The position numbers and the translations under genes are program-made. Shown piece after piece: positions 15,283-24,162 of a stretch of 64,000 nucleotides of DNA (position 1 is the stretch's first letter; each line of letters opens with the position of its first letter). The notes below the pieces were generated by a model. The model made no database searches. It was not told the origin of the DNA and saw nothing but the letters and a program-made list of their open reading frames with translations. The stretch covers positions 1,240,001-1,304,000 of the forward strand of contig NZ_AP014723.1 of the NCBI RefSeq assembly GCF_001548035.1, in the 5' to 3' direction. The DNA comes from Sulfurospirillum sp. UCH001 (GTDB lineage Bacteria > Campylobacterota > Campylobacteria > Campylobacterales > Sulfurospirillaceae).

Positions 15283-15870
15283 GTGGATAAAAAATTACGT
15301 AAAAGTGAAAAGATTTTAGACGCAGCATTGATGCTCTTTTCAACGCAAGGCTTTTATGCAACGACGATTCCTGATATTGCGAAAGCCATGGGGATGAGTG
15401 TTGGAAATATTTATAACTACTTTTCTTCTAAGGAGATGCTTGCAAAGGAAATTATCAAGTATTCTTCCGATATTTTAGGCTCCGAAATTCGTAAAGTCAA
15501 TGAAAGTGAGGGGAGTGCAAAAGAAAAAATTCGTAAAATTGTAGCACTCTATTTTGAGATGGCATCTTCAAAACCACAACATATTAACTACTTTTTACGT
15601 GTGTATCTTGCCAACAAAGAGGTATTTAAAGATGGTTGTGAAGGAATGGTCTGTGTTTCTTCCTTTATAACAGAGCTAATGATTTTCTTTGAAGAAGGCG
15701 TTGCAAAAGGAGAACTTCGCAATCAAGATTTCTTTTCTGCCTTTGGGCTTTTTATGGGGTATTTAGGCGGTTTTGTATTTTTAAGTGGCGAGGGAGTGCT
15801 TGATAAGCCATTAACCCATTATGTGGATGAAATTTCACTTAATATTTATAACGCACTCAAACAACAATAA
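15283..15870 (+). CDS. TetR/AcrR family transcriptional regulator
   Basis: The 195-residue product has a clear TetR DNA-binding domain at the N-terminus: KILDAALMLFSTQGFYATTI, then IPDIAKAMGMSVGNIYNYFSSKEMLAKEII. A helical ligand-binding C-terminal domain follows. The GTG at 15283 is preferred to the ATG at 15256 because GAAGGAAAG sits just upstream and the domain begins there. Its TAA overlaps the ATG of the following small hydrogenase subunit by one base (TAATG), which implies coupled translation. A palindrome of TetR-operator form lies in front of hydA (18244-18257). I infer that it controls one or both hydrogenase operons. Confidence 0.9.
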   Translation: MDKKLRKSEKILDAALMLFSTQGFYATTIPDIAKAMGMSVGNIYNYFSSKEMLAKEIIKYSSDILGSEIRKVNESEGSAKEKIRKIVALYFEMASSKPQHINYFLRVYLANKEVFKDGCEGMVCVSSFITELMIFFEEGVAKGELRNQDFFSAFGLFMGYLGGFVFLSGEGVLDKPLTHYVDEISLNIYNALKQQ

Positions 15871-16760
15871 TGTCTCATAAATCTTCTATTATTTGGCTTC
15901 AAGGGCTTACGTGTAATGGCAATAGCCACTCATTTTTAAATTATACACATATGCCAAGTTTTGCGGCATCTTTTGATATGTTATACCATCCTTTATGGTG
16001 CAGTAATGAAGAGTTTTTATCACTTTTAAATAGTGAAAAAACATTTGATTTTCTTATTCTAGAAGGCGCTCTTAGTCACGATGAGCGTTTACTTCAACGC
16101 TTTAATCTTCCTTTCTTTGAAATTCTAGATAACCTTTCTGCTCGTGCAAAACATATTATATGTGCGGGGAGTTGTGCAAGTTTTGGTGGTATCTTTAGAT
16201 TGCGTGACCCACAAAAAATTACAGGAGCACTCTTTAGCGGTAAAGAGAAGGGTGGTTATTGGTTAGAAAAAAACAATGTGATTAACATTACAGGTTGCCC
16301 CGTACATCCGAGGTGGTTAGTAGAAACACTGATGACATTACATAATGGTGAACACGTATCCTTAGATGAGTATTTGCGTCCGAAAGAAGTCTTTTCATAT
16401 TTGGCGCATCATGGATGTTTGAGAAATGAATACTTTGAATGGAAAGTCGATAGCAAACAGCTTGGAGAGCGAGAGGGGTGTTTATTTTATGAACATGGTT
16501 GTTTAGGACCTATGAGCCATGCCAATTGTAATAAAATTCTATGGAATGATATCAGCTCAAAGACACGAGCGGGATCTCCTTGTTTAGGGTGTACTGAGTT
16601 TGATTTTCCACGTCGAGCGCTCTATGAAACCCAAAAAAATATGTCCTTACCACAAACACCTTTTGGGATTAGTAAACGTGCTTACTACACCCTTGCAGGT
16701 GTTGCAAAAAGTTTTAAGATAGATAGACTTGAAAAGAAGTTGATTGATGAAGATAACTAA
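15870..16760 (+). CDS. hupS: Cytoplasmic group 2-like [NiFe]-hydrogenase small subunit (HupS-like)
   Basis: The 296-residue protein has the small-subunit fold of [NiFe]-hydrogenases but no Tat leader and no C-terminal membrane helix, so it should be cytoplasmic. It opens IIWLQGLTCNGNSHSFLN. The proximal-cluster pair usually written CxxC is C15-x-x-N18, as in cyanobacterial HupS-type (group 2) subunits. Further cluster ligands are seen in CAGSCASFGG, ITGCPVHPRW, the HHGCLRN and EHGCLGPMSHANCN segments, and SPCLGCTEFDFP. Group 2 enzymes act as uptake hydrogenases or H2 sensors. The gene overlaps the TetR gene by 1 nt and the large-subunit gene by 14 nt, so the three are one transcription unit. 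Confidence 0.85.
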   Translation: MSHKSSIIWLQGLTCNGNSHSFLNYTHMPSFAASFDMLYHPLWCSNEEFLSLLNSEKTFDFLILEGALSHDERLLQRFNLPFFEILDNLSARAKHIICAGSCASFGGIFRLRDPQKITGALFSGKEKGGYWLEKNNVINITGCPVHPRWLVETLMTLHNGEHVSLDEYLRPKEVFSYLAHHGCLRNEYFEWKVDSKQLGEREGCLFYEHGCLGPMSHANCNKILWNDISSKTRAGSPCLGCTEFDFPRRALYETQKNMSLPQTPFGISKRAYYTLAGVAKSFKIDRLEKKLIDEDN

Positions 16761-18090
16761 AGAGATTATTGAACGTATTGAAGGTGAAGCAACCTTAGAG
16801 TTGGAATGGGAAAATGAGCAGGTCAGTTTTGCCAAAATTAAATTTTTTAATTACAGAGGCATTGAAGAGATTTTAAAAAAACGTCCACTGCTAGATGCAT
16901 TAGCGCTTACTCCTAGAGTATGTGGTATATGCTCACATTCTCATGCTATCGCTTCTGTTTTGGCGATTGAGGCGTGTTATAAAAATGCTGGAGAGCTTTT
17001 AACGATAAGCCAAAAAGCAAAAGACATTCGAGAAATCGCACTGAATGCCGAGAAAATTCACAATCATATTAAATGGTATTTTTTTACCATACTTCCTGAA
17101 CTCAAAAAAATTAGCGATACATCTTATAAAGGGAATGCTTTTAAGGACAAACAATGGTTTGAGGCTCAACAAGCTGTCATTCAAACACTTAAAATGGGTT
17201 CTCATTTTACCGGACAATGGCCACATGGCTCTTTTGTTATGGCTGGTGGAGTAACGTGTGATCCTCTAAAAAGCGATATTATAGGTGCATTAGGTTGCTT
17301 GGATGCTGTCATCGCCTTTTGTGAAGAGCACTTCTATGGAATGCACTTAGAGGAGTTTTTGAGCTTTGACTCAGCACTGCAAGTTATGTCAGCTCCCTCT
17401 GCTTTGTCATATGGCATTGATGAAATGATTAAGTATGGCTTTGATCGTTTAGGACGAAGTTTTGATCGTTTTTTAGCTTTAGGAGAGTCGTATCGTTATG
17501 AGGGAAGCCTCAAGGCGGCTAAGACAACAGTTTTAGGAGCTGATCTTAAATACGTGCATGAGAGTACAGAACATACATTTTTTGAGGACAAGCACAAAGG
17601 TTATACCTATTCCAAGAGTGCGATGTATCGAAGGAATTATTGTGAAGTTGGACCTTTAGCACGTATGATGGTCTCCAAAGATGCATTGATGCGTGATTTT
17701 CATCGAAGATTTAAAGATGCAGCATTGACGCGCGTTGTAGCACGTGCTGTTGAATGTGCACATCTATTGTTAAGAACAAAAACACTTTTAGCGCAACTAA
17801 ATCTTAAAGAACCTTCTTTGATTTTACCCAAAAGAGATATTTATAGCCTCAGTGGTGAAGGCATTGGTGTGATTGAAGCACCACGTGGCTCTTTGATCCA
17901 TTATGTAGTAGCACAACAAGGCGTTATAGAATCCTATGACATTATCACTCCAACTGTATGGAATTTAGGAAATGGTGATAAAGAGAATCCTTCTACTGCT
18001 CAAAAAGCTATAATCGGTCTAAACTCATTTACCAAAGCAGACTTTATTCTCAAAAGTTTTGACGTTTGTTCTGTGTGTACAACCCAATGA
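16747..18090 (+). CDS. hupL: Group 2-like [NiFe]-hydrogenase large subunit without C-terminal extension (HupL-like)
   Basis: The 447-residue protein carries both nickel-ligand motifs: RVCGICSHSH at residues 57-66 (C59, C62), and DVCSVC at the very C-terminus (C441, C444), which is followed only by TTQ and the stop. Ordinary large subunits have DPCxxCxxH plus a peptide that a protease removes after the His or Arg. Here both the His and the peptide are missing, so processing should be unnecessary. That is a hallmark of regulatory, H2-sensing hydrogenases. The protein is shorter than HydB (582). The ATG at 16747 is chosen over a TTG three bases earlier. Catalytic, sensing and dual roles are all open. 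Confidence 0.86.
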   Translation: MKITKEIIERIEGEATLELEWENEQVSFAKIKFFNYRGIEEILKKRPLLDALALTPRVCGICSHSHAIASVLAIEACYKNAGELLTISQKAKDIREIALNAEKIHNHIKWYFFTILPELKKISDTSYKGNAFKDKQWFEAQQAVIQTLKMGSHFTGQWPHGSFVMAGGVTCDPLKSDIIGALGCLDAVIAFCEEHFYGMHLEEFLSFDSALQVMSAPSALSYGIDEMIKYGFDRLGRSFDRFLALGESYRYEGSLKAAKTTVLGADLKYVHESTEHTFFEDKHKGYTYSKSAMYRRNYCEVGPLARMMVSKDALMRDFHRRFKDAALTRVVARAVECAHLLLRTKTLLAQLNLKEPSLILPKRDIYSLSGEGIGVIEAPRGSLIHYVVAQQGVIESYDIITPTVWNLGNGDKENPSTAQKAIIGLNSFTKADFILKSFDVCSVCTTQ

Positions 18091-18128
18091 ACGTATTATT
18101 TCGCGTGTGACAATTTAGCCATTTTTAA

Positions 18129-18134
18129 TATAAT
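18129..18134 (+). promoter_or_regulatory. Possible -10 box in the hydA upstream region
   Basis: TATAAT in a T-rich context, about 200 nt before hydA. If used, it gives a long leader. The rest of 18091-18332 shows no gene, only the palindrome at 18244-18257 and AT-rich sequence. Confidence 0.35.
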
Positions 18135-18243
18135 ACACTTTTTATCCTCTTTTTTTGTTACTTTTCTACTCTGTTGAATTAAAATACCCTTAATTATGTG
18201 CCTTCCTGCCATATTGTGAAACATTTTTTGATTTAATTCTAAA

Positions 18244-18257
18244 TGAATACTCATTCA
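18244..18257. promoter_or_regulatory. TetR-type operator candidate upstream of hydA
   Basis: Inverted repeat TGAAT-ACTC-ATTCA, a size and form typical of TetR-family operators. It lies 75 nt before the hydA start and in the operon next to a TetR gene. The region before the TetR gene contains a related AATGAAT...CATT arrangement at 15251-15268 with a longer spacer. Confidence 0.5.
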
Positions 18258-18332: not shown

Positions 18333-19490
18333 ATGGAACACGCTAAACTGTACGAAAGGCTTGCTGAGAGACTTAGCAATCTTGAGAAGTTCCCCCGTAT
18401 TAAGGAGGACAAATCTATTGCGGCACTGATGGAAGAGAATGGTATCAGCCGTAGAGATTTTATGAAGTGGGCAGCAGGTGTAACTGCAATGTTGTCATTA
18501 CCTTCAACATTTACACCGCTAATGGCACAAGCTGCTGAGCTTACTGACCGTTTACCAGTTATTTGGTTACACATGGCAGAGTGTACAGGTTGTAGTGAGA
18601 GTTTGTTAAGAACAGATGCTCCAACAATCGATAGTTTGATTTTTGATCACATTTCACTCGAATACCATGAGACACTAATGGTTGCCTGTGGTTGGCAAGC
18701 TGAGCACAACTTAGAGAGTGCGATTGAAAAATACAAAGGTAAATACATCTTAATGGTAGAAGGTGGTATTCCTGCAGGTAGCAGTGAATTCTTCTTAACT
18801 GTTGGACCACACGGACAAACAGGTCAAAAAAGTGCACAAAAAGCGGCTGATTCTGCAGCAGCTATTTTTGCTATTGGTTCTTGTTCAAGTTTTGGTGGTA
18901 TCCAAGCAGCTCATCCAAACCCAACCAATGCACAACCTCTTAGTAAAGTAACCAATAAACCAGTTATCAATGTTCCAGGCTGTCCTCCAAGTGAGAAAAA
19001 TATTGTAGGCAACGTTTTACATTATATTCTTTTTGGCACACTTCCAGCACTTGATGCATATAATCGTCCAAAATGGGCATATGGCCTTAGAATTCATGAT
19101 CTTTGTGAAAGACGTGGACATTTTGATGCAGGTGAATTCGTTCAAGAATTCGGTGATGCAGGTGCTAAAAAAGGTTTCTGTCTTTATAAAGTGGGTTGTA
19201 AAGGTCCTTATACTTTCAATAACTGTTCACGTGAGAGATTTAACCAACATACTTCTTGGCCAGTTCAAGCAGGTCACGGCTGTATCGGTTGTTCAGAGCC
19301 AGGTTTCTGGGATAACATGGGACCATTTGAAGAACCATTAGGTGATAGATTGTACCATACAGTTTATGGCGAAGGTGCTGATAAAACTGCTGATAAAGTA
19401 GGTGTGGCACTCTTAACTGCAACTGCAGTAGGTATTGCGGCTCATGCGGCGATTGCTGCGGTTAAGGGCAGTGGAAAAACTGAAGAATAA
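18333..19490 (+). CDS. hydA: Periplasmic [NiFe]-hydrogenase small subunit
   Basis: HydA carries the electron-transfer iron-sulfur clusters of the membrane-bound uptake hydrogenase. The 385-residue precursor has a Tat leader with SRRDFMKW at residues 39-46 and a hydrophobic stretch ending near PLMAQA. The proximal cluster motif AECTGCSESLLR, then GSCSSFGG, VPGCPPSE, CERRGHFDAGEF, VGCKGPYTFNNCS and GHGCIGCSEPGFWD, supply the cluster ligands. A C-terminal hydrophobic helix (VALLTATAVGIAAHAAIAAV) anchors it to the membrane. AGGAGAG precedes the ATG. It heads hydABCDE and is exported with HydB as a folded complex, as known for Wolinella succinogenes HydABC. Confidence 0.97.
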   Translation: MEHAKLYERLAERLSNLEKFPRIKEDKSIAALMEENGISRRDFMKWAAGVTAMLSLPSTFTPLMAQAAELTDRLPVIWLHMAECTGCSESLLRTDAPTIDSLIFDHISLEYHETLMVACGWQAEHNLESAIEKYKGKYILMVEGGIPAGSSEFFLTVGPHGQTGQKSAQKAADSAAAIFAIGSCSSFGGIQAAHPNPTNAQPLSKVTNKPVINVPGCPPSEKNIVGNVLHYILFGTLPALDAYNRPKWAYGLRIHDLCERRGHFDAGEFVQEFGDAGAKKGFCLYKVGCKGPYTFNNCSRERFNQHTSWPVQAGHGCIGCSEPGFWDNMGPFEEPLGDRLYHTVYGEGADKTADKVGVALLTATAVGIAAHAAIAAVKGSGKTEE

Positions 19491-19505: not shown

Positions 19506-21254
19506 ATGAGTAAAAGAATCGTAGTAGATCCAATCACCAGAATCGAAGGTCACTTAAGGGTAGAAGTTATTGTTGATGATAACAATGTTGTTACTGAAGC
19601 ATACTCTTCTTCAACACTTTGGAGAGGTATCGAGACTATCCTTAAAGGCAGAGACCCAAGAGATGCAGGCTTTATGGTACAAAGAATTTGTGGTGTTTGT
19701 ACATACTCACACTACAAAGCGGGTATTATGGCAGTTGAAGACGCTCTAGGAATTGAGCCACCACTTAATGCAAAACTAACACGTACATTGATGAACAATG
19801 CACTTTTCTTACACGATCACGTTGTTCACTTCTATCATCTTCATGGTCTTGACTGGGTTGATGTTGTTTCAGCTCTTAAAGCTGATCCGCATAAAGCTGC
19901 AGCTGAGTCATTCAAATACACAGACGCTCCAATCGCGTGTGGTGCAGATGATCTTGTAGCAACTCAAAAAAGAGTAGCTGAATTTGTTAAAAAAGGACAC
20001 CTTGGACCATTCGCTAATGCGTACTGGGGACATCCAACATACAAATTGACACCAGAGCAAAACCTTATCGCGGTTTCTCACTACCTTAAAGCACTTGAGC
20101 TTCAAAGAACAGTTGCTCAAATGATGGCTATTTTTGGTGCAAAACAACCACACCCACAAAGCTTAACCGTTGGTGGTGTCACATGTGTTATGGACCTTCA
20201 AACACCTTCACGTTTAGGTGAGTATTTAACTAAATTTAAAGAGATTGCAGATTTCGTTAACCGTGCATATTATCCAGACGTTGTTATGGCAGGACGTGCG
20301 TACGCTGGCGAGCCAAGTGTTACAGGAGGCTTGGGTGTACCAAATCTCTTTACACAAAAAGAGTTCCAAATTAACGCGAAAGAGTTCTTGTTTGAGAGCG
20401 GCGTAATGTTGGGCGAAGATGTTGTTAACTTGATTACAGGTAAACCATTTAAAGTTCAAACATTAGATGAGAGCAAAATTACAGAAGAAGCGACACGTGC
20501 ATGGTATAAAGACAATGCTGCATATCATCCATATGAAGGTCGCCAAGAGCCTAACTATACAGGCTTTAAAGACGCTCAAACGATCAATGACAAAGGTGTT
20601 CTTGCTCCTACAAAAGTTATTGATGAAAACGGTAAATATACTTGGATTAAAGCACCTCGTTACGATGGTAAACCACTTCAAGTTGGACCATTGGCAAATA
20701 TCGTTGTTAACTATGCACTAGGTAACAAACGTGTAAAAGTGGTTGTTGATAAATTCTTGAAAGATACAGGTCTTCCTATTACAGCTGTTGCTTCAACACT
20801 TGGTCGTACAGCATGTCGTATGATCGAAGCTAAAGTTATTGCTGATAATGGTTTAGAAGCATTTAACGCATTGATTCAAAACTTAAAAGTTGACGATGCT
20901 ACATGTACAAGTTACAAAATTGATAAAAACAAAGAGTACAAAGGTCGCTACATTGGTCACGTACCACGTGGTGTTCTAAGTCACTGGGTTAAAATCAAAA
21001 ATGGTGTGATTGAAAACTACCAAGCTGTAGTTCCTAGTACATGGAATGCAAGTCCAAAAGATGCTAAAGGTGTTAGAGGATCTTATGAAGAATCTCTCAT
21101 TGGCTTGAAGATCACAGATCTTTCTCAACCGCTTGAAATTGTAAGAATCATCCACTCTTATGATCCATGTCTAGCATGTGCTGTACATGTTATGGATACA
21201 AAAGGTAATGAGATGAGCAGTTATAAGGTCAATGTTAACGGCGCATCTTGCTAA
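19506..21254 (+). CDS. hydB: Periplasmic [NiFe]-hydrogenase large subunit
   Basis: HydB holds the nickel-iron active site that splits H2. The 582-residue protein starts MSKRIVVDPITRIEGHLRVE and has the first nickel motif RICGVCTYSH (C62, C65). The second is DPCLACAVH (C555, C558, H561). The 21 residues after H561 form the C-terminal extension that a HyaD-type protease removes once nickel is inserted. HydD, two genes downstream, is the obvious candidate. The ATG at 19506 follows GAAGGATAAG, and an in-frame TTG at 19491 is less likely. It lacks its own export signal and should travel with HydA. Confidence 0.97.
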   Translation: MSKRIVVDPITRIEGHLRVEVIVDDNNVVTEAYSSSTLWRGIETILKGRDPRDAGFMVQRICGVCTYSHYKAGIMAVEDALGIEPPLNAKLTRTLMNNALFLHDHVVHFYHLHGLDWVDVVSALKADPHKAAAESFKYTDAPIACGADDLVATQKRVAEFVKKGHLGPFANAYWGHPTYKLTPEQNLIAVSHYLKALELQRTVAQMMAIFGAKQPHPQSLTVGGVTCVMDLQTPSRLGEYLTKFKEIADFVNRAYYPDVVMAGRAYAGEPSVTGGLGVPNLFTQKEFQINAKEFLFESGVMLGEDVVNLITGKPFKVQTLDESKITEEATRAWYKDNAAYHPYEGRQEPNYTGFKDAQTINDKGVLAPTKVIDENGKYTWIKAPRYDGKPLQVGPLANIVVNYALGNKRVKVVVDKFLKDTGLPITAVASTLGRTACRMIEAKVIADNGLEAFNALIQNLKVDDATCTSYKIDKNKEYKGRYIGHVPRGVLSHWVKIKNGVIENYQAVVPSTWNASPKDAKGVRGSYEESLIGLKITDLSQPLEIVRIIHSYDPCLACAVHVMDTKGNEMSSYKVNVNGASC

Positions 21255-21274: not shown

Positions 21275-21949
21275 ATGAAAAGAGATATAGAATTTGAGTT
21301 CTCGGCAGGGCTTCGTTGGACGCACTGGCTTAGAGCAATTGCTATTTTTGTATTAACGGTGACAGGTTTTTATTTAACCTATGTGTTCATCGCTCCTGAA
21401 GCATCAGATGAGCCTATCCTCTTTTTGAATGCAAAATTCAGAATGTGGCATGAAATAGCAGGATTTTTGCTAATTGCAATTACACTCTACAAAACATACC
21501 TCTTCTGTGTTGATAGCATCAGTTCAAAAGAGAGAATATCGTTTTTAGATTTTGTAAGTCCAAAAATATGGATTCAACAGCTTAAATATTACCTTTTTAT
21601 GGGGGAACACCCTCATTTAAGAGGTGTTTATAATCCGTTGCAATTTGTAGCATATGTTGGTCTTTATGCAATGATTTTCATCATTAGCTTAACAGGCCTT
21701 ATTTTATATGTTCATTGTTATCAAGGTGGTGGTATTGGTCTTTTCTTATATGACTATATGCGCCCAATTGAAGCAATGCTTGGCGGACTTGCAATGGTAA
21801 GAGAGATTCACCATATCGTTATGTGGGGTATCTTGATCTTCTTACCAATTCACATCTATATGGCAATCTTTAACTCTATTATGGGTAAAGAGGGTTCAAT
21901 GGATGCGATTATTAGTGGTTACAAATTTCATAAACAACACAAACACTAA
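21275..21949 (+). CDS. hydC: Hydrogenase di-heme cytochrome b subunit
   Basis: HydC anchors the hydrogenase and passes electrons to menaquinone. The 224-residue protein has four hydrophobic membrane segments and the histidines expected for two b-type hemes: RWTHWLRA, FRMWHEIAGF, REIHHIVMWG and FLPIHIYMA. The ATG at 21275 follows AAAGGGAGTCTAAC. A TTG-initiated extension overlapping hydB is possible but not family-like. In Wolinella the equivalent subunit is required for electron transfer to quinone. Confidence 0.95.
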   Translation: MKRDIEFEFSAGLRWTHWLRAIAIFVLTVTGFYLTYVFIAPEASDEPILFLNAKFRMWHEIAGFLLIAITLYKTYLFCVDSISSKERISFLDFVSPKIWIQQLKYYLFMGEHPHLRGVYNPLQFVAYVGLYAMIFIISLTGLILYVHCYQGGGIGLFLYDYMRPIEAMLGGLAMVREIHHIVMWGILIFLPIHIYMAIFNSIMGKEGSMDAIISGYKFHKQHKH

Positions 21950-21961
21950 GAGAGCCTTTTC

Positions 21962-22501
21962 TTGAAAGTGTTGATTTTGGGCATTGGCAATGTGATGTTC
22001 TCCGACGAAGGCGTCGGAGTTCATCTTTGCCGCCTTGTTGAACAAAAGTATCAGTTTTCTTCGCCAGAACACACCCTCACATTTGTTGATGGTGGAACCC
22101 TCGCACAAAGATTAATCCCTATTATTGCTGAGTATGAATATCTCATCGTTCTTGATTGTGTTGATGCCCATGATGGAGAGATTGGTGATGTGTACTTTTT
22201 TGATTTTGAAAATGTACCTAATACCATTACATGGCAAGGCAGTGCACATGAAGTGGAGATGCTTCAAACACTCACAATGATGGATATGGTAGGAGATCGT
22301 CCTCCTACAAAAGTTGTTGGTATTATTCCAGAAGTTGTAGATGACACCACATTAGAACTAACCCCTGCCGTTTTAAAAGGTAGTTCTGTAATGGAGAGCG
22401 TTTTACTTAAACATTTGGTAGAATTAGGATTTTCGTATCAGCAAATCAGCGATATTGATATCCAAAGCGTTGCCAATATGTCCTGTTTGGAGGATCGATG
22501 A
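21962..22501 (+). CDS. hydD: Hydrogenase maturation protease (HyaD/HybD family)
   Basis: The 179-residue protein starts KVLILGIGNVMFSDEGVGVH, the nickel-sensing motif of the HyaD/HybD endopeptidases (Glu/Asp ligand in SDEG). It then has FVDGGTLAQRL and VLDCVDA, with the other metal ligands. These proteases remove the C-terminal peptide of the large subunit after nickel insertion, and HydB has such a peptide while HupL does not. Translation starts at TTG (21962), with AAGAGAG upstream. Its TGA overlaps the ATG of the next gene by 4 nt (ATGA). Confidence 0.93.
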   Translation: MKVLILGIGNVMFSDEGVGVHLCRLVEQKYQFSSPEHTLTFVDGGTLAQRLIPIIAEYEYLIVLDCVDAHDGEIGDVYFFDFENVPNTITWQGSAHEVEMLQTLTMMDMVGDRPPTKVVGIIPEVVDDTTLELTPAVLKGSSVMESVLLKHLVELGFSYQQISDIDIQSVANMSCLEDR

Positions 22502-24162
22502 TCTTAGCATTCGAATTTAATTACGTTTCCAACAATGGTATTTTAGAAAATTTACTCAAAGAAATTGCGAATGATTTTGACATTAGTCATAAAATTATTC
22601 GTAAAGACTCTATCGTTACACTTTTTGTAGAAGAAGATGAGACACGCTTGTGTACGTTTGCCGATACGCTTTCTGCATCTCTTCCATTGTCAATCTTTTT
22701 TAAATCCTCTAGCGTAGAAGTTGTAGATACGATGTCTGATATTACTGAGGTTATTCCACCTCTTGCATACACCATCGAATTTACCCCAAAAATCTTAGCT
22801 TCAGTAGATAATCCAAATTCTGAATACTATCTTGCACCTTTCATTTCTTCGTCTCGTACCAATGTAAAGTTGTACCAAAACGAAAACGAACTTTTACATG
22901 GTAGTGATGCCAAAGCTTATGAAGCGGTGTATGACAGGTTAGCAGAATTGATTGCAAATGGTGAAAATGTAACTATTCAAACTAAAAATGGATCATATGT
23001 CTATGGAAAGATAGAAAATATCGCTTCATGTACACAAACGCTTGAGGTGATTGCGACCGATCTGTCTGTTGTAGAGCGTATGGTCGTTTGTAGAGAGAAT
23101 GAAATTAAAGCGTTAGCATCACTTGAGCGTCCAGCCATTCGTTTTAAAGTTAATGCATTGTTTTCACAAAAAGGTATTGTGAAAGAGTCTCGCGTTATAT
23201 TGAGACTTGCAGATGATCTTTTTATGTATCAGCTTTCAAAGCGCCTTTTTAGTAAAGGAGTCCAGTTCCTTTTCAAAGCAACGACGCAAAACTGTAAAGC
23301 ATCTTATAGTGTTCAGTTTGATGCCAAGTTACAAGCTATTGAGCCACTATTGGTTAGTGTTCTTGAAAACGGTGCTATTTTGATTGTAAAAGGAAGCGAT
23401 TATGCCTCTTCTACACTCAAAGCCAGTTTGGAAAAATTTGATGAGCCTTCTCATGGAGCATTTGCTTCTATCATGCAAGAGCATCAGCTTTTTGATGCAA
23501 CGACAAGTTGTTTTTATCTAAGTACGCTTCATAATGATCGTATTATGCACTATTCGAAAGAGCATGGTATGCTCAATCTCATAGAGATTTCTCTACCGTC
23601 TTCCTTTGAAGAGCTGTTTGCTGAAATTGAGAGAAGTAGCCCGAATGCAGAGCGTTTGGTTGCTAATTATAAAGAGCAATTTCCTGAAATTTACGCTAAA
23701 GCGATTGAAACGATTATTCCAAGTGATACACCAAAAAGTATTTACTCTCTTTGGAAAATTGTTGCGATGGTCTTGGGTCTTAGTGAAACATTTGAGAGTG
23801 CTGCTGAACAATTGATCGAAAATGCTGAAGATTTTGGCGGTCAAAAAGGGCCACGCATTGACTATTTCTTGCAAAAAGAAGATGCGTTAAGCTCTGATAT
23901 TGACTATGTAAGATTAGTACGTAGTGGCATTAGTTATAAATTAGCAGGTACAGATAACACAACATTGAGCTTTGGTTATATGGAAAGCCTCTCTTATTTT
24001 ATCTCTGATCTTTGTGACACACATAAGGAGAATTTGCTAACAAGTAAAATTGCGCTTGGTGGTTCTTTATTTGGCTACAAACGATTTTCTGAGATGATTG
24101 CTAAAAATCTTAAACCAAATCATACGATTTGCTTTAATAAAGAATTGCCGATTGACCAATAA
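22498..24162 (+). CDS. hydE: HydE-type hydrogenase accessory protein, HypF-like C-terminus
   Basis: The 554-residue protein occupies the hydE position of the Wolinella-type hydABCDE operon. It is not the radical SAM HydE of [FeFe]-hydrogenases, because no CxxxCxxC cluster motif is present. No signal peptide or membrane helix is visible. The last 120 residues (SGISYKLAG, LSFGYMESLSYFI, then SKIALGGSLFGYKRFSEMI and CFNKELPIDQ) resemble the C-terminal Kae1-like end of HypF, where the equivalent motif is SGGVFQN. The HypF acylphosphatase and zinc-finger domains are absent. It overlaps hydD by 4 nt and hypF by about 11 nt. A maturation role is inferred from context; the reaction is unknown. Confidence 0.8.
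   Translation: MILAFEFNYVSNNGILENLLKEIANDFDISHKIIRKDSIVTLFVEEDETRLCTFADTLSASLPLSIFFKSSSVEVVDTMSDITEVIPPLAYTIEFTPKILASVDNPNSEYYLAPFISSSRTNVKLYQNENELLHGSDAKAYEAVYDRLAELIANGENVTIQTKNGSYVYGKIENIASCTQTLEVIATDLSVVERMVVCRENEIKALASLERPAIRFKVNALFSQKGIVKESRVILRLADDLFMYQLSKRLFSKGVQFLFKATTQNCKASYSVQFDAKLQAIEPLLVSVLENGAILIVKGSDYASSTLKASLEKFDEPSHGAFASIMQEHQLFDATTSCFYLSTLHNDRIMHYSKEHGMLNLIEISLPSSFEELFAEIERSSPNAERLVANYKEQFPEIYAKAIETIIPSDTPKSIYSLWKIVAMVLGLSETFESAAEQLIENAEDFGGQKGPRIDYFLQKEDALSSDIDYVRLVRSGISYKLAGTDNTTLSFGYMESLSYFISDLCDTHKENLLTSKIALGGSLFGYKRFSEMIAKNLKPNHTICFNKELPIDQ

Follow-up and report, generated by a model that had tools for sequence, protein, structure and literature searches.

On balance, we favour a reading in which the three genes tetR, hupS and hupL, taken as a whole, form a regulatory module of the one-component type that governs hydrogen metabolism: judged from sequence comparison, the TetR-family protein very likely controls the neighbouring respiratory hydrogenase operon, hydABC, and the cytoplasmic hydrogenase HupSL rather probably acts as a functional input to it. 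The case for the TetR regulon is strong, that for HupSL as a sensor is plausible, and the route of electron transfer between them is speculative. The proposed switch has three steps. A TetR dimer would repress hydABC by binding the palindrome TGAAT-N4-ATTCA in its promoter region, which is strongly supported by the distribution of the site, and in other families it would also bind and repress at nicO-hypBCDE and hypA. HupSL, which we infer to be a cytoplasmic group 2 hydrogenase of low abundance, unprocessed but catalytically competent and probably translated from the TetR mRNA, would report H2, or the balance between H2 and acceptor, to TetR. More speculatively, this report would be a redox change of the invariant cysteines C128 and C133 of TetR, as a disulfide or at a bound metal or Fe-S centre, with the electrons supplied by HupSL or by a carrier that HupSL reduces.

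Gene arrangement and conservation of the module

The genes were analysed in a stretch of 64,000 nt (G000:C1:1240001-1304000; "the window") of a 2,606,563-bp genome whose nearest relatives are Sulfurospirillum, the named ones including S. diekertiae JPD-1 (locus L208) and S. cavolei UCH003 (L213). The gene overlaps claimed in the preliminary description are present: the TetR stop and the HupS start share TAATG at 15868-15872, and HupS and HupL overlap by 14 bp, from the HupL ATG to the end of the HupS stop codon. Likewise, hydABC lies directly 3' of the module, as it does in most relatives. We consider GTG the better TetR start, since relatives align from this position, some with ATG there (Table 1).

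Table 1 Features of the tetR-hupS-hupL locus and the hyd operon (positions in the window)
Feature	Position	Strand	Remarks
TetR-family repressor gene	15283..15870	+	GTG start; alternative is in-frame ATG 15256
TetR C128-x4-C133 codons, alpha6-alpha7 loop	15637..15654	+	numbering from ATG 15256
HupS, cytoplasmic [NiFe] hydrogenase small subunit	15870..16760	+	PF14720/PF01058
HupL, large subunit, NiFe ligands intact, without C-terminal maturation peptide	16747..18090	+	PF00374
HupL unprocessed C-terminus, VCSVCTTQ-stop	18064..18090	+	
Sigma70-like promoter GTGACA-16-TATAAT (11/12), candidate constitutive hydABC promoter	18107..18134	+	
Predicted TetR operator TGAATACTCATTCA, TGAAT-N4-ATTCA	18244..18257	.	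starts 89 bp before hydA start codon
hydA, small subunit of the respiratory hydrogenase, exported by TAT; predicted target operon	18333..19490	+	
hydB, large subunit, normal cleavable C-terminus	19509..21254	+	
hydC, cytochrome b subunit	21278..21949	+	TIGR02125 above cut-off
hydD, maturation endopeptidase	21962..22501	+	PF01750, TIGR00140

The order tetR-hupS-hupL is present across several families. Among 397 Campylobacterota genomes, 112 hold both TetR and HupS and 281 hold neither, TetR occurring by itself in three (G363, G170 and G228, the last with a fragment) and HupS in one (G310, a partial match); four weak HupS matches of about 30-34% identity (G363, G203, G224, G350) were discounted as other hydrogenases. 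Counted by locus, 121 distinct places with TetR were compared; 112 of them have HupS directly 3' of it, with overlapping reading frames in 62. Eight TetR loci were counted as having no adjoining HupS; they include two whose TetR frame the script parsed wrongly (L036, L043), an interrupted one (L280) and two real losses of HupSL (L133 in G363 and L134 in G170), and at L220, L228 and L232 hypF adjoins tetR in place of hupS. Identity outside the family is about 52-69% for TetR and about 32-52% for HupL, and the best 80 loci in a contig scan were all from Campylobacterota. Gene content and gene order thus support TetR and HupSL as one conserved module.

Two of these loci, L220 (2745-5543) and L232 (3424-6206), run from the TetR orthologue directly into hypF with no hupS between them. 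At L134, an opposite-strand gene that by eye resembles a sulfide dehydrogenase or flavoprotein lies between tetR and the hydA operator, at the place of hupSL.

The predicted operator and its regulon

The palindrome TGAAT-N4-ATTCA has a single match in the window, where 0.30 would be expected, and TGAAYRNTYATTCA occurs once in the whole 2.6 Mb genome, between hupL and hydA. Across relatives, the palindrome is found in 80/98 hydA promoters of TetR-bearing loci (0.28 expected from Markov resampling), a count of related loci and hence not of 98 independent events, and in 1/26 hydA promoters without TetR, the one being that of G191, from the genus group of the TetR-bearing G363. Where the perfect palindrome is missing, a close variant such as AATGAATATTCATT is often seen. 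The hydA types that it precedes are only about 50% identical to each other, and in other families it stands before nicO-hypBCDE operons (L180, L181, L182) and hypA (L179). Of the 27 loci returned by a scan of 18 TetR-bearing whole genomes, open to non-hydrogenase loci, 21 adjoin hydA or hyp/nicO genes (L293 and L308 being neighbouring sites at one promoter); together with the 80/98 against 0.28 expected, this rules out a chance palindrome. The possibility that TetR regulates an unrelated target, raised in the preliminary description as a potential refutation, is thus opposed by the predicted operator at hydABC and at the hyp/nicO genes.

The alignment of Sulfurospirillum hydA leaders follows the same pattern, with an operator that is near-invariant in the presence of tetR and broken in the absence of tetR-hupSL. 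In TetR-less Sulfurospirillum with a HydA that is 94-95% identical, the second half-site is gone and the flanking leader blocks are kept. Upstream of tetR itself, the palindrome occurs in 1/120 regions, which rules out autoregulation of tetR-hupSL through this site and leaves HupSL outside this regulon, as expected of a sensor. By the distribution of the palindrome, the most likely targets of TetR are hydrogenase genes and not hupSL.

How such a repressor would act can be compared with published expression data. A simple scheme in which H2 induces hydABC is opposed by S. multivorans, where hydB is constitutive and the effect of H2 insignificant (PMC5357620), and by S. cavolei, where fermenting cells have significantly less HydABC (PMC6242987), the opposite of plain H2 induction. 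The latter result would be in line with repression by TetR in reduced, acceptor-limited cells, and the constitutive expression may be explained by the sigma70-like promoter upstream of the operator. The -10 region of this promoter is kept in TetR-less relatives (hydA leader alignment), although the consensus scan by which it was scored is weak alone, shuffled sequences giving similar numbers.

The same promoter opens a conserved leader block at 18107-18165, GTGACA-N16-TATAAT followed by ACTTTTTATCCTCTTTTTTTGTTAC, which is largely kept in TetR-less Sulfurospirillum and may constitute a constitutive promoter with a regulator site of its own. The stretch that immediately precedes the operator (TTTGATTTAATNCTAA), a possible second promoter, gave no score in the consensus scan.

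HupSL and the TetR cysteine pair as candidate sensor parts

HupL ends in C441-S-V-C444-T-T-Q447-stop, bearing out the earlier claim that it lacks both the His and the C-terminal peptide. All 62 orthologous HupL end in the same manner, C-[SA]-V-C followed by about three residues (the last being H, Q or K) and the stop, so the unprocessed end is no chance feature. HydB of the same cluster, unlike HupL, ends in DPCLACAVHVMD...GASC, and the endopeptidase HydD presumably serves HydB, given that HupL has no peptide to cut. By Pfam, HydA carries a TAT signal and HupS does not. The four NiFe ligands of HupL (C59, C62, C441 and C444) and its active-site residues R380 and E12 are invariant (62/62 orthologues), as are H180 and the Cys Fe-S ligands of HupS except at position 18, a ligand of the proximal cluster, where the window protein and 56/62 orthologues have N instead of C. 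A degraded HupL was ruled out, as all ligands are invariant; this conservation points to an enzyme that should be competent, and no relic. At the same time, the hupL transcript is very low and the HupL protein unseen, with no enzyme-level expression (PMC5357620, PMC6242987), and S. denitrificans has no soluble H2 uptake despite transcription of hupSL (PMC4149538).

The partner protein is a clear member of its family (PF00440, 63.8 bits against a cut-off of 24), and its AlphaFold2 model (pLDDT 89, pTM 0.83) has the nine-helix TetR fold, matched to TetR folds by Foldseek. In TetR proteins, ligand binding is relayed to the DNA-binding domain through the alpha6-alpha7 region. In the model, the loop 125-134, between helices 107-124 (alpha6) and 135-150 (alpha7), holds C128 and C133, which are present in 62/62 aligned orthologues, without exception in another alignment of 41, and in 118/121 TetR loci; in the remaining three the frame is misparsed or interrupted. 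Conservation of the ligand domain equals that of the DNA-binding domain (entropy 1.05 and 1.07), which suggests a fixed partner or a fixed chemistry. Among the structure matches, none of the solved TetR structures was close enough to give a ligand, and a literature search for TetR relatives that sense through Fe-S or Cys yielded nothing useful. Paralogues without HupSL lack the exact C128/C133 pair; four of them carry two Cys at shifted positions within this loop and one further paralogue a related C-x5-C, so a Cys pair there is not specific to a partnership with HupSL. Across the wider subfamily, the loop probably serves as an element responsive to redox state or metal.

Four TetR paralogues with such a shifted Cys pair and about 39-45% identity to the window protein (L175 4643-5224, L176 4693-5349, L177 4541-5125 and L178 4571-5152) adjoin genes resembling group 4 hydrogenases or molybdate transport, and those of L175 and L176 have the palindrome TGAATATTCATTCA adjoining.

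The strongest competitor to HupSL as the input is a TetR that senses redox state, thiols, quinones or persulfides by itself and sets hydABC accordingly, with HupSL a metabolic enzyme that merely shares the operon. The two genomes with real losses of HupSL, G363 and G170, keep TetR, both cysteines and the operator, which is evidence against HupSL as the input and agrees with this reading, as do the conserved Cys pair, the pairs that HupSL-less paralogues hold in this loop and the lower HydABC of fermenting S. cavolei (PMC6242987). We nevertheless consider it fairly unlikely in view of the near-perfect co-occurrence of TetR and HupS, their overlapping reading frames, the position of hupSL outside the operator regulon, and an expression below enzyme levels (PMC5357620, PMC6242987). 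HupSL thus stands as the somewhat likelier input to TetR, and it is plausible that it is an H2 sensor setting the redox state of TetR. That the signal consists of electrons acting through C128/C133 is a tentative proposal about which we are doubtful, and we are equally hesitant about its most direct form, in which HupSL would pass H2 electrons straight to these cysteines, or to a metal or Fe-S site held there, in the co-encoded TetR. Of the H2-sensing module put forward in the preliminary description, the conserved TetR-HupSL unit and hydABC as its predicted target are upheld, and the direct route from HupSL to TetR stays conjectural.

Known systems and the wider hyd operon

The known H2-sensing systems HupUV-HupT-HupR and HoxBC-HoxJ-HoxA are built on group 2b regulatory hydrogenases, which are marked by a very low H2 turnover and an O2-insensitive site. 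HupSL resembles HupUV/HoxBC as a two-subunit cytoplasmic group 2 [NiFe] hydrogenase that has neither export signal nor C-terminal peptide, and its likely link, via the predicted TetR operator, to regulation of an uptake hydrogenase operon would be a further parallel. It differs in that its cluster has neither a histidine kinase nor an NtrC-type activator, that a TetR-type protein with a predicted operator at hydA is encoded in overlap with it, and that HupS lacks one proximal-cluster Cys. The claim that HupT/HoxJ is absent holds for the cluster in the window and in relatives, where TetR is the partner; with no kinase partner in the cluster, tetR-hupSL is not a member of the HupUV-HupT-HupR type, although its mode of action may resemble that of a regulatory hydrogenase. 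Huc of M. smegmatis is a high-affinity uptake enzyme. Its small subunit (Hydrogenase-2, group 2a, PDB 7utd/7uur) is the closest solved chain to HupS (7utd_B, E 2.5e-51) and shares C-x-G-N at the proximal cluster, but the similarity is moderate, and the present HupL differs by its unprocessed end and its pairing with TetR. FadR, BetI and RutR share fold, DNA-binding domain and a palindromic operator (predicted here) with our TetR; they differ from it by identities of about 14-26% in structure matches, by NCBIfam scores far below the family cut-offs, and by its hydrogenase partner and invariant C-x4-C loop.

An H2-sensing role has already been proposed for the HupSL of Nautilia and related group 2 enzymes (PMC2628731), and the same label is given in a passage of PMC4584964 that cites Nakagawa 2007. 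Others place the Campylobacterota HupSL in HydDB group 2d, with Aquifex aeolicus hydrogenase III and Hydrogenobacter Hup2, and assign it a role in the reverse TCA cycle (PMC5401914, PMC11406935); HydDB, as cited in a passage of PMC10052474, treats the function of group 2d as unresolved and possibly regulatory. In the literature that we found for this group, the operator and regulon of the partner regulator are undescribed. The published alternative would make HupSL a group 2d uptake enzyme that delivers low-potential electrons to the reverse TCA cycle, with TetR repressing hupSL, and it draws on the similarity to Aquifex hydrogenase III (PMC5401914, PMC4149538) and on the position of TetR 5' of a silent hupSL (PMC5357620). 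We judge it improbable: the operator lies at hydA and the hyp genes and not at tetR-hupSL, so the suggested repression of hupSL is not supported; the N at HupS position 18, as in Huc, would by inference be unsuited to very low-potential output; soluble H2 uptake activity is missing in S. denitrificans (PMC4149538); and HupSL occurs in many Sulfurospirillum, most of them without aclAB (PMC11406935). The present findings argue against the common annotation of HupSL as an electron supplier for carbon fixation. That the palindrome belongs to another regulator, tied to TetR only by the shared ancestry of the hydrogenase cluster, is very improbable, for although binding by TetR is itself predicted and some genomes hold TetR paralogues with a similar DNA-binding domain, two of them beside the similar palindrome TGAATATTCATTCA, the operator disappears with tetR in close relatives and is retained before divergent hydA types and hyp operons, and in genome G000 this TetR is the sole match at E<=1e-20.

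Much of the chemosynthesis at vents is driven by H2. Many vent and sediment Campylobacterota carry the tetR-hupS-hupL module, which looks like a candidate for the missing switch of hydrogen metabolism in the phylum, and hydrogenase gene regulation in Epsilonproteobacteria has been described as nearly unknown (PMC5357620). The candidate regulator, its predicted operator of 14 bp and regulon, and a pair of cysteines open to mutation make the question directly testable. If the link from hydrogenase to TetR is true, it would represent gas sensing without a kinase; if electron transfer is direct, a hydrogenase would switch a one-component DNA-binding protein with neither kinase nor small ligand, and in much of Campylobacterota the hydrogenase and maturation genes would be under a single switch of this kind.

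Further along the hyd operon, 22498-24162 encodes a 554-aa protein that is conserved across relatives and has a weak match to a HypF C-terminal domain (Pfam, 20.5 bits, below the cut-off). In L165 (G314) and L168 (G150), two different hyd operons stand in tandem behind tetR-hupSL, with palindromes before both in L165, and before the second, with a variant at the first, in L168.
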